NCBI GenBank assembly: GCA_028280105.1
Contig: JANQML010000210.1
Coordinates: 1 to 49,127, forward strand
DNA length: 49,127 bases
Source: Desulfobacula sp.
GTDB taxonomy: Bacteria; Desulfobacterota; Desulfobacteria; Desulfobacterales; Desulfobacteraceae
Direction: 5' to 3'
Below the pieces are notes generated by a model, which worked only from the letters and a program-made list of their open reading frames with translations, made no database searches and had not been told where the DNA came from. Shown piece by piece: positions 1,380 through 49,127 of this stretch. Positions within the stretch are counted from its first letter, which is position 1, and each line of letters begins with the position of its first letter. A program made the position numbers and the translations under genes.

Positions 1380-2363
1380 TTAATTTGACTCGGCCAAATG
1401 GCACGCGGCTGTATGCCCTTCACCGATCCGTTTTTCCAGCGGCACCTTGATACGGCACACCGGTTCCACCCAGGGGCACCGCCCTGCAAACCGGCACCCC
1501 CGGGGCATATTCAGCAAAGACGGAACGCTGCCTTTTATTGTGGGCAGCCGGGTTTTCGGCTGCTTGGACAAAGAGGGAATGGATTTTAAAAGTCCTTGAG
1601 TATACGGGTGCCCGGGAGATTTGAACAGGGATCGGGCATTTGCTTTTTCCGCGACCCGCCCCGCATACATGACTACGACATCGTCGCAGTTTTCCGCGAT
1701 AACCCCCAAGTCGTGAGTAATCAGCAGCACCGACATACCAGACTCTTTCTGGAGGATACGGATTAAATCCAGGATCTGGGCCTGAACCGTCACATCAAGG
1801 GCAGTGGTCGGTTCATCTGCAATCAGAATCTGGGGTTCACATGCCAAAGCCATACCGATCATCACCCGCTGCCGCATCCCGCCGGACAATTGGTGGGGAT
1901 ATTTTTTAACCACCTTATCCGGATCGGAAATACCGACTTTTTCCAGCATTTCCACTGCCCGGGCCTGCATGTGCCGGTGGGATAATTCGCCGAAATGGAG
2001 CCGGTAGACTTCCGTCATCTGTTTTCCGATACGCTGTACCGGATTCAGTGCGGTCATGGGTTCCTGAAAAATCATGGAAATTTTTCGCCCCCGGATCCGG
2101 TGCATCTCTTCAACGGGCAAATCAAATACAGATTCACCGTTGAACCGGACGACTCCGTTGACGACTCTGGATACGGGTTTGGGAAGCAGGCGCATAATGC
2201 TCAGGGCTGTCACGCTTTTACCGCAACCGGATTCCCCGGCAATGCCAAGGATCCGGCCCTTTTGAAGGGAAAAGCTAACCTTGTCCACCGCCCTTACCAA
2301 CCCGGATTCGGTATCAAATTCAATAACCAGATCCGCCACTTCCAGAATGATTTCAGAATCCAC
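1380..2363 (-). CDS. Oligopeptide/dipeptide ABC transporter ATP-binding protein (OppD/DppD-like)
   Basis: This 327-residue protein has the normal full length for OppD/DppD ATPases. It has Walker A (GESGCGKS, about residues 42-49), the ABC signature (LSGGMRQR), Walker B (ILIADEPTTALD), the H-loop (THDLGV), and the C-terminal peptide-transporter extension with HPYTQGLL and a cysteine-containing CRFAGRCPW segment typical of the family. The start codon is GTG, with GGTGGAG upstream inside the end of the preceding gene. It follows the binding-protein gene by 8 bp, so the two are co-transcribed. The membrane permease genes that normally lie between binding protein and ATPases are absent here and may lie beyond the left edge. 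Confidence 0.95.
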   Translation of the reverse strand: MDSEIILEVADLVIEFDTESGLVRAVDKVSFSLQKGRILGIAGESGCGKSVTALSIMRLLPKPVSRVVNGVVRFNGESVFDLPVEEMHRIRGRKISMIFQEPMTALNPVQRIGKQMTEVYRLHFGELSHRHMQARAVEMLEKVGISDPDKVVKKYPHQLSGGMRQRVMIGMALACEPQILIADEPTTALDVTVQAQILDLIRILQKESGMSVLLITHDLGVIAENCDDVVVMYAGRVAEKANARSLFKSPGHPYTQGLLKSIPSLSKQPKTRLPTIKGSVPSLLNMPRGCRFAGRCPWVEPVCRIKVPLEKRIGEGHTAACHLAESN

Positions 2364-4246: not shown

Positions 4247-4553
4247 TTTAACTCCACTAAAAGTCCCGATAAAAAAAACAGGGGAATTCAGCCGAATCAT
4301 AATTCCCCAACCGTTTTCAAAGCATACCAAATCATTGGGTTCTTAATCAATCATTCTTTTACCCATCAAAAATGAACAAATCGCGGTTAAGACGGTCGCC
4401 CCCTGGTGTTTATCAGATTTTACGCCGTTTTTTTTAACAAGGGGCCAGGTATACACCTTGACCCGAAAAAGTTTATCATATAGCATGAGATTCATCATCT
4501 AAAGGATTGTCTTTAAGTCAATCAAAGGTTTATTAAGGAAATCAGAACGTCTT
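4247..4553. other. Divergent intergenic region between peptide-binding protein and motA
   Basis: This 307-bp gap must hold promoters for both divergent units. On the plus strand TTGACC (4458-4463) and TATAGC (4479-4484) are 15 bases apart, a weak sigma-70 candidate. AAGGAAA precedes the motA ATG. I found no convincing flagellar sigma-28 or sigma-54 element, no RNA gene and no small ORF with a good ribosome site. Confidence 0.35.
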
Positions 4554-5333
4554 ATGGATATTGCATCGTTTATTGGAATCATCTCCGGATTTTCATTGAT
4601 TATCAGTGCCATTTATCTGGGCGGTGATCTGCATAATTTTATCAACATACAGGGGCTGATGATCGTATTCGGGGGAACCATTGCCACCACCCTGATTACC
4701 TTTCAGTTCTCGGACGTCATTGCCGCCTTTAAAGCCGCCTATTTTGTCTTTTCCAAGGACAAGGAAGACCCCAACGATGCCGTGGCCACCATGATCAAGC
4801 TCAGCCATATCAGCCGGCGCCGGGGACTGCTGGAACTGAGTAAGGTCGAAACCGATTCGCTTTTTCTAAAAAAAGCCTGCGGGCTTCTTGCGGACGGATC
4901 CTCTGAAGAGGTCATCCGGGCGGCGCTCACCACTGAAATCCAGTCCCTTCAGATGCGCCATTTCATTGTCCAGGATGTCTTCCGGAAGATGGGAATTTAC
5001 GCACCGGCATTTGGTATGCTGGGAACCCTGATCGGCCTGGTTCAGATGTTAAGCCGACTCCAGGACCCGGCCCACATCGGACCGGCAATGGCAGTGGCAT
5101 TGTTAACCACCTTTTACGGTTCCCTTTTATCCACCCTGTTTTTTCTGCCCATTGCCGGTAAGCTGAGATCCAGGACCGTGGCGGAGATCATTAATCTTGA
5201 AATCAAAAGGGAAGGCGCCATTTCCATTATCAAAGACAATAACCCGGTTATCATATATGAGAAATTGTCCAGCTTTATCTCATCCCGGTTGCGAAAACCC
5301 ATGAAAAAGATGAATCTGAAAAAAGAGCCATGA
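4554..5333 (+). CDS. motA: Flagellar motor stator protein MotA
   Basis: This 259-residue integral membrane protein is the proton- or sodium-channel subunit of the flagellar stator. It has two N-terminal transmembrane helices (residues about 2-22 and 30-50), a large cytoplasmic loop that contacts the rotor, and two C-terminal helices around FGMLGTLIGLVQML and AVALLTTFYGSLLSTLFF, the latter containing conserved MotA/PomA pore motifs. Length and order are standard for the PomA-like branch. It overlaps motB by 4 bp (ATGA), which implies translational coupling and equal synthesis. Ion specificity cannot be decided from the sequence. Confidence 0.95.
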   Translation: MDIASFIGIISGFSLIISAIYLGGDLHNFINIQGLMIVFGGTIATTLITFQFSDVIAAFKAAYFVFSKDKEDPNDAVATMIKLSHISRRRGLLELSKVETDSLFLKKACGLLADGSSEEVIRAALTTEIQSLQMRHFIVQDVFRKMGIYAPAFGMLGTLIGLVQMLSRLQDPAHIGPAMAVALLTTFYGSLLSTLFFLPIAGKLRSRTVAEIINLEIKREGAISIIKDNNPVIIYEKLSSFISSRLRKPMKKMNLKKEP

Positions 5334-46105: not shown

Positions 46106-46965
46106 GTGCAAATGAAAAATAAGCCGAGAAACCCATGGATTGCCGGTGTGTTAACGCTTCTTACAATTGGGTTGGGGCATATGTATTCGGGCAGAATACA
46201 AAAGGGCATCCGCCTGTATCTGGGGCTTTATATACTCCTTCCGGTCTGCATGATCTTTCTGTTTCTTTACCCTTCACTTGCCGTTATCCTGGTATCCCTG
46301 GCAGTTGGTTTTGCTTATGTTGTGTATGCCATAACCGATTCCGTGCAAACAGCTAAAAGGGGACGTTCTTTTTACCAACTGAAAAATTACAATCGATGGT
46401 ATTTTTACATCGCTGTTTTACTGGCCGGCACCTTTGTCATTCAGCCGGTCCTATCCAATTTTGTAAAAAAGCAAATTATTCAAGCGTATAAAATACCGGC
46501 CGGATCGTTAAAGCCTGCTTTATTAATTGGAGATCAGATACTTGCAAAGACAGGATTTGCAATAAAGAACGGTGTCCAGAAGGGAGATGTGATTATTTTT
46601 TCCCATCCCCGGGATCCGTCAAAAGATTTTATAAAGCGTGTCGTGGCGGTTGGGGGTGAAACAGTTGAAATAAAAGAGAAAGAAATATATATTAACCATG
46701 AGAAAATTAATGAGCCCTATGTTATCCACAGCGATTCCAGGATCATTCCGGCAAACCTTTCGCCAAGAGATAACATGCCTGCCGTAAAAGTCCCTGATGA
46801 TTCGCTCTTTGTAATGGGGGACAACAGGGACAACAGCCATGACAGCCGATTCTGGGGGTTGTTGAAACATCCGCTGTCAAGGGGAAGGCGTCTGTCATAT
46901 ATTGGTCATGGGATCGGGGAAATTTCAAAATTCGCTGGGACAGGGTTGGCAAACCTGTCAATTAA
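46106..46965 (+). CDS. lepB: Signal peptidase I (S26), frameshifted near the 3' end
   Basis: The N-terminal third is a multi-helix membrane domain (about residues 12-120), then the S26 peptidase with catalytic S134 in IPAGSLKP, general base K177 in FIKRVVAVGG, and box E MGDNRDNSHDSRFWG. After FWG the reading frame leaves the family: within a run of five G (46854-46858) one base appears to be missing. In the frame starting at 46858 the expected C-terminus is intact (KGKASVIYWSWDR, then IRWDRVGK) and ends at TAA 46963-46965, giving about 286 residues. As given, translation would instead run on to 47218 with about 120 unrelated residues. Catalytic residues are upstream of the break. Real mutation, slippage or sequencing error are all possible. 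Confidence 0.85.
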
Positions 46966-46983
46966 CCTCATCGTTGCAAAAAG

Positions 46984-47076
46984 CGTGAAGGTTCCAGCTT
47001 CAAGGCACCAAGTTTGCCGCTGTAGTACTCTACCGCAAAACCTTGGGAACGAAGAAGATGGGATCTTCACGTTTTT
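46984..47076. other. Nested hairpin element (structured RNA or bidirectional terminator candidate)
   Basis: A series of nested pairs spans about 88 bases: CGTGAAG (46984-46990)/CTTCACG (47065-47071), GTTCC/GGAAC (47046-47050), AAGG/CCTT (47041-47044), TTTGC/GCAAA (47035-47039), GTAG/CTAC (47030-47033) with a TACT loop. On the plus strand five T follow (47072-47076); on the minus strand CTTTTT follows as well. This may be a small RNA or an elaborate bidirectional terminator. I could not match it to 5S, 6S, 4.5S or tRNA. Apart from it, 46966-47250 shows no convincing gene. Confidence 0.5.
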
Positions 47077-47250
47077 CCCGGAAGGTAAAAATTTTTATGC
47101 AACGTTGAGGTTTATTTATCGTCTGCAAAAAAAGATCGAAACTTTTTTTCATTCTCCAGATGAGTATTCAAGATATCGAAGCGTTTTCTTTGGTTTTCTG
47201 ATTTTTTTAGGAGGATGATGAAAATTTGTCTGCCAGAGCTGTTGAAGCTG

Positions 47251-47346: not shown

Positions 47347-47619
47347 ATGCAAAGGCAAATAAGAGCAAGAACGGTAAAAATAGTCCCTATCGGTAATTCA
47401 AAAGGCATTCGTATTCCCAAAACACTCATTCAGAAATATGGCCTTAAAAATTCAGTTTTGATGGAAGAAACAGAAAAAGGACTGCTCCTCAGGAATACGG
47501 ATGAAAACAAGCTTTCCTGGGAAGATACTTTCAAAGCCATGGCCGATGAAAAAGAATTATGGGACGATTTTGATATAACGCTTCTTGACGGCCTGGAGAA
47601 TGAAAGTTTTGAATATTAA
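47347..47619 (+). CDS. mazE: MazE-like antitoxin (AbrB/SpoVT fold)
   Basis: This 90-residue antitoxin has the swapped-hairpin DNA-binding domain at its N-terminus (VKIVPIGNSKGIRIPKTLIQKYGL is the usual MazE pattern) and an acidic C-terminal tail (DEKELWDDFD) that wraps around the toxin in MazEF complexes. GGGAG lies 8 bases before the ATG. A strong promoter overlapped by a palindrome lies upstream. Its end overlaps the toxin gene by 20 bp. The assignment as a toxin-antitoxin pair is firm. Confidence 0.92.
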   Translation: MQRQIRARTVKIVPIGNSKGIRIPKTLIQKYGLKNSVLMEETEKGLLLRNTDENKLSWEDTFKAMADEKELWDDFDITLLDGLENESFEY

Positions 47620-47935
47620 CCGGTATGAAATCTATTTTGCTGATCTCAATCCAACCATTGGCGGTGAAATACAAAAAATCCGACCCGTTGTAATCATCAG
47701 CCGGGATGAAATGAACAAATACCTGGACACAATTGTTATCTGTCCATTGACATCAAAACTGCACCCGAAATGGAGAACACGCCTTCAAATCAAATGTGCT
47801 GATAAAGACGCTGAGATTGCGGTGGATCAAATTCGTACTATCAGCAAACAACGACTGAAAAATAGAATCGACAAACTGTCTGCAAACAAGGCTGCTCAGT
47901 TGCGCAAACTGATAACGGACATGTACGGGGAATAA
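47600..47935 (+). CDS. mazF: MazF-like endoribonuclease toxin
   Basis: This toxin of about 111 residues belongs to the MazF/PemK family of mRNA interferases. RYEIYFADLNPTIGGEIQKIRPVVIIS contains the conserved RPVVI strand with the catalytic arginine region, CPLTSKL the second loop, and VDQIRTISKQRL the usual C-terminal helix. The start is uncertain: ATG 47600 follows GGAGA closely, a second candidate ATG lies at 47585, and TTG codons lie after. Overlap with mazE implies translational coupling. Cleavage specificity cannot be predicted. Confidence 0.92.
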   Translation: MKVLNINRYEIYFADLNPTIGGEIQKIRPVVIISRDEMNKYLDTIVICPLTSKLHPKWRTRLQIKCADKDAEIAVDQIRTISKQRLKNRIDKLSANKAAQLRKLITDMYGE

Positions 47936-47984
47936 CTGTCATACGACACCAGCCGACATTTTTGGGTGTATAATAAACAAGTTT

Positions 47985-48052
47985 AAAAAAAACCCCTGCC
48001 GGAACCTTCGGTCCCGCGTCTCCGGCTCCTGGCCTACCAGTACCGGCAGGGG
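47985..48052 (-). terminator. Terminator of the DGR transcript (long-loop hairpin)
   Basis: CCCCTGCCGG (47993-48002) pairs perfectly with CCGGCAGGGG (48043-48052), and on the minus strand eight T follow (47985-47992). The 40-base loop contains further small stems (GGGACC/GGTTCC with a wobble pair, CTGG/CCAG). It closes the minus-strand unit of reverse transcriptase and template repeat. The elaborate loop could also be part of the template RNA structure. Confidence 0.8.
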
Positions 48053-48149
48053 TCCTGCACATGTTTGCCGGGAAGATCTTTCTCTACTTCCCGGACAGGA
48101 ACCTGCCCTGGTCAACAGGCGGCAGATCCGTGCCGCGCGGTGAGCTGAG

Positions 48150-48290
48150 GGCAGCAAGAGGCGGAACCCCAGGTTGTTGTTGCGGTTGTCCGGCGAGTTC
48201 CTGTTACGATTCGCGGCCCGGACGTTCCTCGGGTTGTTGTTCCACGACCCGCCGCGTTTAACCCGGTTCGAGCCCTTGGGCAGATCCCTA
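48150..48290 (-). repeat. DGR template repeat (TR), adenine-rich, in the same orientation as the reverse transcriptase
   Basis: Read on the minus strand, this stretch has the sense pattern SNRVKRGGSWNNNP, then NRNRNSPDNRNNN and LGFRL. The core from the R of RGGSW to FRL covers 48158-48256 (33 codons). It holds eleven asparagine codons, ten AAC and one AAT, which is the hallmark of DGR templates where adenines are copied with errors into a variable repeat. GC-rich sequence (CTGGGGTTCCGCCTC) follows the A-rich block, as expected for an initiation region. There is no start codon or gene around it: a stop (TAA) lies 41 bp upstream of the core in the same frame. It could instead be an orphaned variable repeat, but its place next to the reverse transcriptase favours TR. 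Exact limits are unknown without the matching variable repeat. Confidence 0.88.
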
Positions 48291-48312
48291 TAAAGTTATC
48301 AGTTGTCAGTGT

Positions 48313-49127
48313 TCAGTTCCGGCAACCGATAGTTTTTTTCCTGAAAGATGTCGCATCTGCGATACGTGTAAAATCAATGAGCGGTTCAACATGGGAAATT
48401 AACTCTGCCCGTGTCCATATGCCGCTCCTGTATTTTTCTTCGTATTTATGCAGTTTACGGGAGAATCTGCTCCTGCTCCGGTGCGAGAGCCGGATTTGTC
48501 CGGGAAAAATCCGGAATCCGAGAAAAGTGAATCCGTGACTGGTGCGGTTAAGCTTAATGCCTTGTTTCAGTTCAAGTTTCAAGCTGTCCCTCAGCCGCTC
48601 TTTAAGATATAACAGCTCTTTTTTCAATAAAGCTTTGTCATTGGAAAAAAGGAGAAAATCATCCATGTACCGCAGATAGTGCCGAACCTTCAGTTCTTCT
48701 TTGATCCACCGGTCCAGGGGGCTTAAGTAAAAATTGGCCAGGTGCTGGGAAACAAGGTTGCCGATGGGCAAGCCTTTGCCAGGAGTTTTATGATAAGTAG
48801 ATAAAAGCTTGCCGAATAAATCCATCAGTTCCGGGTCTTTGAAACGTCTTCTCAGCAGGGACAAAAGGATTTCATGATCAATGGAGTCGAAATATCTGTG
48901 AATGTCAAGCTGAAGGTAAAATGCATTCTTTCCTGCAAAATTTTTAGCCCGTGCAATGGCTTTGCGGTTGCCTTTGCCCTTCCGGCAGGCATAGGAGTCA
49001 AAAATAGCGCAACGATCCAGTATCGGTTCGCACAGATTCATGACCGCATGGTGAAGGACGCGCTCCGGAAAAGAGGCTGCGCAGATTTCCCTCTGCTTGG
49101 GGTCATACACAGTAAAAAAGCGGTAAT
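48313..49127 (-). CDS. DGR-type reverse transcriptase, N-terminus beyond window
   Basis: At least 271 codons are visible; the frame is open to the right edge and the first visible residues (YRFFTVYDPKQREI) match the internal start of RT domains, so roughly 80-100 N-terminal residues are missing. Motifs in order: VLHHAVMN, SYACRKGKGN, catalytic LDIHRYFDSIDH (motif A), LPIGNLVSQHLANFYLSPLDRW (motif B), YMDD at 48661-48672 (motif C), and FLGFRIFP. The SQ in motif B is the mark of DGR reverse transcriptases, unlike QGxxxSP of group II introns and retrons. No maturase or endonuclease domain follows. The template repeat lies just after its stop codon. Avd and the variable target gene are not visible and may be to the right. 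Confidence 0.93.
   Translation of the reverse strand, partial: YRFFTVYDPKQREICAASFPERVLHHAVMNLCEPILDRCAIFDSYACRKGKGNRKAIARAKNFAGKNAFYLQLDIHRYFDSIDHEILLSLLRRRFKDPELMDLFGKLLSTYHKTPGKGLPIGNLVSQHLANFYLSPLDRWIKEELKVRHYLRYMDDFLLFSNDKALLKKELLYLKERLRDSLKLELKQGIKLNRTSHGFTFLGFRIFPGQIRLSHRSRSRFSRKLHKYEEKYRSGIWTRAELISHVEPLIDFTRIADATSFRKKTIGCRN

Follow-up and report, generated by a model that had tools for sequence, protein, structure and literature searches.

The right end of a bacterial contig carries a reverse transcriptase (RT) frame followed by an A-rich stretch, and the question is whether the two belong to a diversity-generating retroelement (DGR) and, if they do, what lies behind the template and where the target is. 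DGRs are bacterial systems in which a template is copied with deliberate errors into a target gene. The window analyzed here is the entire contig C318 (49127 bases), which comes from a genome of 5.93 Mb in 413 contigs that is 98% complete with 6.5% contamination. The contig has no sequence to the right of 49127, and its end at this position falls within the RT frame. Because the contig stops inside the RT, the target, its variable repeat (VR), and the accessory gene are out of sight. The features of the element are as follows.

48313..49125, minus strand: DGR-type RT with its 5' end missing at the contig edge (open frame, RVT_1, motifs, RT tree)
about 48147..48275, core 48158-48253, minus strand: template repeat (TR), A-rich with an FGE-like reading, its limits set by analogy with relatives
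47995..48146, minus strand: whole RNA domain P1-P2-P3, spacer-like (model R2, trained without the window: 61.8 bits, E 8.5e-14)
48119..48136, minus strand: hairpin P1, 6 pairs, loop CGGATC
48068..48094, minus strand: hairpin P2, then CAAA (hand-anchored alignment of relatives)
47995..48051, minus strand: hairpin P3 with internal loop UGGUA / GAA (model R1: 36.3 bits, E 1.7e-6; covariation in 18 other rows)
47985..47992, minus strand: eight T in a row behind P3, where the transcript probably ends (sequence; fold of 47980-48070, z -2.81)

The RT is of the DGR type. Its frame is open for 270 codons from the contig edge to the stop at 48313, it matches Pfam RVT_1 (E 1.2e-17), and about 61 N-terminal residues are absent as gauged against the relative L039. 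The motifs IGNLVSQ and YMDD are both present. A quick RT tree of 72 rows, with L077, L097, L100, and L104 removed before it was built, places the window in a 59-row clade with BPP-1 Brt, and 13 group-II-like rows stand apart with an SH-aLRT of 100. The nearest rows are L039, a Desulfobacteraceae MAG (61% identity), and L110 (57%). It is extremely improbable that the frame is instead a group II intron, retron, or defence RT that happens to lie next to the tail of an FGE pseudogene. Low-scoring matches to many families of this kind do come up in NCBIfam and PADLOC, and the TR does read as an FGE tail, but all nine NCBIfam scores, Drt models included, are far under their cut-offs. The group II model TIGR04416 gives 104.4 bits against a cut-off of 300, and the retron St85 model gives 60.5 bits against 235. 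The window RT also has IGNLVSQ in place of the group II motif QGG..SP, and the identical RT-TR-RNA order occurs in relatives that have a VR. These readings of the RT were rejected on the sub-cut-off scores, the motif, and the tree. The sequence-only reading had described an RT with these two motifs and had proposed a tree to separate DGRs from group II introns and retrons; both the frame and its place in the DGR clade agree with that description.

A genome of the same genus that consists of a single contig (G007) has 30 matches to the RT query, many of them sharing one 446-aa frame. These represent a burst of group-II-intron-like RTs, and one copy (L023) has QGG..SP.

The A-rich stretch directly past the RT stop has the features of a template. 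On the same strand it translates as RVKRGGSWNNNPRNVRAANRNRNSPDNRNNNLGFRL, and the same-strand reading of the stretch after the stop, made by eye, is RGGSWNNNPRNVRAANRNRNSPDNRNNNLGFRL. When the whole genome was searched with the FGE-sulfatase profile, the TR matched positions 207-254 of this 255-position profile at E 4.7e-6, a likeness beyond chance. Its 3' junction reads CAGCTCA, as expected of a TR and not of a VR from the TR-VR pairs of relatives, and its position and reading agree with the TRs of relatives, whose VRs differ at adenines. An FGE pseudogene tail was rejected on the RT tree, the almost adenine-only differences in relatives, and the RNA domain behind the TR. The A-rich copy proposed from the letters alone is confirmed by its reading and by the profile match, and its identity as a DGR template is backed by the tree, the complete relatives, and the RNA domain. 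The proposed extent of the element stands for the RT and template, but its lower limit was too high, as the functional RNA extends to about 47985.

Complete elements are found in relatives. TR-VR pairs were sought as repeats with differences on adenines, with few non-A differences tolerated. Such pairs are present in eight of ten relative stretches from other genomes, and clear pairs are present in 28 of the 39 loci L039-L077 (L077, which is partly masked and doubtful, is left out of the 28/39 count). In 31 pairs from 25 loci, a subset of all pairs found, 583 of 1065 TR adenines differ after trimming of ragged ends, compared with 8 of 2864 other bases; this ratio is partly selected because the scan favors few non-A differences. 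The 3' junction has C in the TR and T or G in the VR in 20 of the 31 pairs. Among the 28 loci with a clear pair, the RT precedes the TR in 21, while the TR comes before the RT in 7. The order in the window is therefore ordinary. It does differ from that of the Bordetella element, as had been remarked, yet it is the usual one among the relatives.

The accessory genes of relatives are of two kinds. G021 and L039 have an HRDC accessory placed between target and RT (Pfam HRDC E 3.7e-19 and 1.5e-16, respectively), and G020 has bAvd instead of HRDC (E 8.7e-21). The window stops before the accessory and target region seen in L039 and G021. These two and the element of Treponema denticola, as described in the available text of PMC4891356, are chromosomal DGRs with FGE targets and HRDC, and they share the DGR RT and the FGE-type TR with the window. 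In T. denticola the TR comes first and is separated from the RT by the accessory, whereas in the window the RT comes first (PMC4891356, same portion). From the RT, the TR, the RNA domain described below, and their relatives, we estimate a probability of about 0.88 that the right end of the window carries the 3' half of a chromosomal DGR in which RT, TR, and a folded domain are on one transcript and an FGE target with a VR lies in the gap.

A conserved RNA domain follows the TR. It was first suggested by comparison of the window with L039, and neither of these sits in any training alignment. MAFFT with RNAalifold on 23 regions gave no structure, and the fold appeared only once the alignment was anchored on motifs. 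Words common to the stretches behind TRs are AGCTCA, a hairpin with a GGAT loop (P1), GAACCGG, P2 followed by C[AG]AA, and P3 with UGGUAG and CGAA inside it, often followed by T. The anchors of P3 and P2 were hand-picked, while P1 is the best-pairing GGA[TG] hairpin of each row, chosen by script. In 22 hand-anchored rows, including the window, 196 of 220 P3 cells are paired, compared with a mean of 116.1 and a maximum of 143 in 5000 shuffles. P1 has 48 of 54 cells paired against a shuffle mean of 27.2 (18 of the 22 rows; the other four have no GGA[TG] loop), and P2 has 69 of 84 against 53.2 (21 of the 22 rows, with L046 left out). In 18 rows without the window, P3 is paired in 94.4% of cells versus 55.4% in shuffles, and its covariation score is 0.995 versus 0.219, with 0 of 500 shuffles as high. 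Shifting the P3 partner by 1-3 columns reduces pairing to 30-42%. The UGGUA or UAGUA opposite GAA in P3 presumably resembles the loop-E/sarcin-ricin module.

P3 and its T-run could be taken for a mere intrinsic terminator, with the other hairpins incidental, but this is unlikely. The hairpin is GC-rich and is followed by eight T in the window, and T-runs come after the hairpin in several relatives. However, the conserved internal loop is superfluous for a terminator, and P1, P2, and the unpaired words are conserved as well. In addition, the domain lies between TR and RT in L047, L068, and L115, where a terminator would cut off the RT. The plain terminator reading was rejected on conservation and on the TR-RNA-RT order in these three loci. 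P3 with T8 probably ends the transcript here as well, and a simple terminator scan did not report P3/T8.

Adjoining the 3' end of the DGR is a toxin-antitoxin pair at 47347-47935 on the plus strand. It is PemK/MazF-like (E 4.4e-27), and the antitoxin is MazE-like with a Pfam score of 23.4 bits, just below the cut-off of 24.7.

Two covariance models were used to follow the domain. R1 is a P3-only model trained on 18 of the 22 rows (the window, L039, L028, and L044 were left out), and R2 is a three-hairpin model of 11 rows with the window excluded. The 11 rows of alignment A5 were chosen from 400 random subsets as the set that agreed best with the structure of L051, so that counts on A5 are biased to that structure. 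In the window, P3 is the sole R1 match at E<=10, and R2 matches the whole of 47995-48146 on the minus strand with the score given above. In the window's own genome, 150 of 347 first-look candidates were scored, and P3 is the sole R1 match at E<=1 among these.

The domain recurs in other genomes. Over 79 other, non-training sources, R2 has 23 matches at E<=0.1, which represent 22 places, as L113 and L122 coincide, in 21 genomes or records, as L036 contributes two. The best matches outside the window are L110, L039, and L112, at about 67 bits. By name, the matches outside training are from Thermodesulfobacteriota, Bacteroidota, Lentisphaerota, and Spirochaetota, and Verrucomicrobiota, Hydrogenedentota, Planctomycetota, and Omnitrophota are added by the training rows, whose match is built into the model. 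Algoriphagus alkaliphilus DSM 22703 (L048) is a cultured carrier of the domain. R2 has no match at E<=0.1 in the group-II-like loci L078, L079, L081, L082, and L086, in the viral loci L089-L107, in the loci with DGR-type RTs of other clades (L067, L069-L077), or in L058. It finds nothing at E<=10 in L029, L034, L053, or the Treponema loci L063-L066, and it gives only 12.4-14.5 bits in L047, L111, and L114. L027 and L043 stop too soon past the RT or TR for the domain to be sought.

At genome scale R1 is insensitive. Across 395 genomes of the phylum, with 15 candidates per genome scored, it matched two at E<=0.01, while 16 of the 395 have a related RT at E<=1e-25. Both matches, in the window's own genome and in G189, lie behind a DGR RT and TR. 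In 23 chosen RT-bearing genomes, with up to 150 candidates scored in each, seven were matched at E<=1. Six of these matches are within 0.8 kb downstream of an RT on the same strand, and the seventh (G360:C49, E 0.49) is away from the RT. R1 also scores 18.5 bits in both L100 and L034 and 17.8 bits in L079, and these matches are taken as chance.

The domain does not correspond to a described family in the sources searched. Rfam 15 has no match in the whole window at the gathering score or in 47900-48330 at E up to 1. A literature search, which did not take in a 2025 Nature article on the RNA of BPP-1, found no description of the RNA domain. The general idea is already known, and the specific conserved fold and its spread may be new. 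The Nodularia DGR1 ncRNA, which according to the available text of PMC3610870 is transcribed from a strong start site that lies past a DGR RT, downstream of it, in an element with an FGE target, is likened to the window element by description only (DGR RT, FGE target). That text gives 70 near-identical genomic copies for it, versus one P3 here among the candidates scored.

In L036 (G056:C64), extra copies of the P3 region lie away from the TR at 521-581, 4500-4560, and about 1495-1785 (minus strand), the last found by reading. These copies are on one small contig and are perhaps dispersed like the Nodularia DGR ncRNA.

The RNA domain travels with the template. It trails the TR in both gene orders and with both HRDC and bAvd accessories. 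The order in L047 is target, accessory, TR, P3, RT, and in L068 it is an A-rich GGSWNN stretch, the RNA domain, another frame, and the RT. L115 has an A-rich TR-like stretch, the RNA domain, and the RT, which is the arrangement of BPP-1, and in the RT tree its row is sister to that of BPP-1 (support 82). In L028, L030, L031, and L032, which have two or three VRs each, the domain is behind the TR only.

These arrangements invite comparison with phage BPP-1. In the available text of PMC12875486, the BPP-1 spacer 3' of the TR folds and recruits the RT-Avd complex, and an internal adenine of the spacer primes cDNA at the TR 3' junction. The window resembles BPP-1 in its RT family, its TR, and an RNA spacer 3' of the TR, and the mechanism is proposed by analogy. 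It differs in that BPP-1 has the order avd-TR-spacer-brt and a target of the tail-fibre type. The best place for R2 in BPP-1 is 2753-2874 on the minus strand, inside the TR-brt spacer, and the match of the spacer to this RNA class is weak (5.6 bits, E 0.031 in 451 bases with filters off). R1 finds nothing convincing in BPP-1. The position, TR linkage, and conservation of P1-P2-P3 suggest that it is the natural equivalent of the BPP-1 spacer, and by this analogy it is probably the domain that recruits the RT and primes cDNA. We lean slightly toward a broader view as well, in which one homologous domain (P1-P2-P3 with the loop-E-like UGGUA/GAA), absent from Rfam, is an ancestral scaffold for RT recruitment and cDNA priming behind the DGR templates of some eight named phyla, whichever the gene order and whether the accessory is HRDC or bAvd; the spacer of BPP-1 would then be a diverged version of it.

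As a DGR, the element adds one more chromosomal member of the FGE type; its main value lies in the RNA domain. The work on priming and RT recruitment used a phage element with its spacer between template and RT, and the literature search found no evident spacer equivalent for elements in which the TR follows the RT. The covariance model supplies a candidate equivalent and allows template RNAs to be found without an assembled VR, as here. The stems and internal loop of the domain are open to direct tests.

The proposed mechanism is as follows. A transcript running from high to low window coordinates would carry the RT, the TR, and the folded 3' domain. The RT and an accessory protein, expected to be of the HRDC type, would bind the TR RNA via P1-P2-P3. 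cDNA would be started at the TR 3' junction, and TR adenines would be misread. The cDNA would then take the place of the VR in an FGE-domain target gene, at its 3' end; that gene would lie in the unassembled gap, upstream of the RT, and is likely to be the secreted caspase-FGE gene cut at the end of contig C368.

The missing half does not appear elsewhere in the assembly. A DNA search of the 413 contigs found no VR, and a pattern search of the genome with template adenines free and up to 3 mismatches matched only the TR itself. Among FGE loci checked for a VR, the best (L003) agrees at 43 of 80 non-A positions, compared with 80 of 80 for the TR itself. The sequence-only reading had proposed a search for near copies of the template in the genome and had counted the lack of a second copy against a DGR, and a second copy is indeed lacking from the assembly. 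We infer an assembly gap, since searches of the other contigs for the RT N-terminus and for a dedicated accessory gene also found neither; the only HRDC matches are weak, at E 0.001 (inside an 864-aa frame) and 0.04. Their absence from other contigs would be expected if all of these parts lie in one gap. The earlier placement of the target to the right of 49127 agrees with the contig break, but the contig has nothing past that point and a target there is putative.

Alternatively, the element could be a decayed or orphan DGR, with RT and TR left, the target and VR lost, and diversification ceased. The assembly has no VR and has three complete FGE genes without one, as this would predict. It is nevertheless quite unlikely, as the RT frame is open to the contig edge, the RNA domain is intact, and the contig stops exactly where relatives have the accessory and target.

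The best candidate for the target is on C368. There are five FGE places in the genome: the TR, three complete genes without likeness to a VR, and one gene truncated at the right end of C368. This last gene has a caspase domain (E 1.5e-43) followed by FGE positions 4-111 of 255 and then the contig end. It is ranked first because of its orientation and its architecture, as two DGR targets with VRs in G021 are also caspase-FGE. The secreted caspase-FGE gene is thus a putative target, and C368 and C318 are without physical linkage in the assembly. The tetranucleotide likeness of C368 to the window (0.936) means only that it fits the same genome, and it is not above that of other contigs of this genome (0.943 for C212 and 0.923 for C260).

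Targets of this kind have precedents. The available portions of two papers describe caspase-like domains in DGR variable proteins of cyanobacteria (PMC7517822) and DGR-diversified conflict systems in multicellular bacteria (PMC10907252). The likeness to these systems lies in the caspase-FGE architecture of the C368 candidate and the two G021 targets and in the NACHT-FGE protein of L039; unlike the published targets, the C368 gene is a candidate, presumed to be tied to the window DGR. Earlier papers thus already describe caspase-like variable proteins (PMC7517822), HRDC accessories (PMC4891356), and DGR-diversified conflict systems (PMC10907252).

Two relatives show the variety of targets. In L028 (G021:C496) a single TR is surrounded by three FGE targets with VRs, and the two that were scanned are caspase-FGE. 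The target of the nearest relative, at 2-2656 in L039, is a NACHT-FGE protein of the conflict-system sort.

The window and C368 also share an interspersed repeat of 130 bp that is 93.8% identical, at 46965-47094 in the window and 8088-8217 in C368 (L010). In the window it lies at the 3' end of a signal-peptidase-like frame (46106-47218), and in C368 it is shortly upstream of the caspase-FGE gene. A 24-28 bp neighbor of this repeat is found again close to the ends of two further contigs, C183 and C212.
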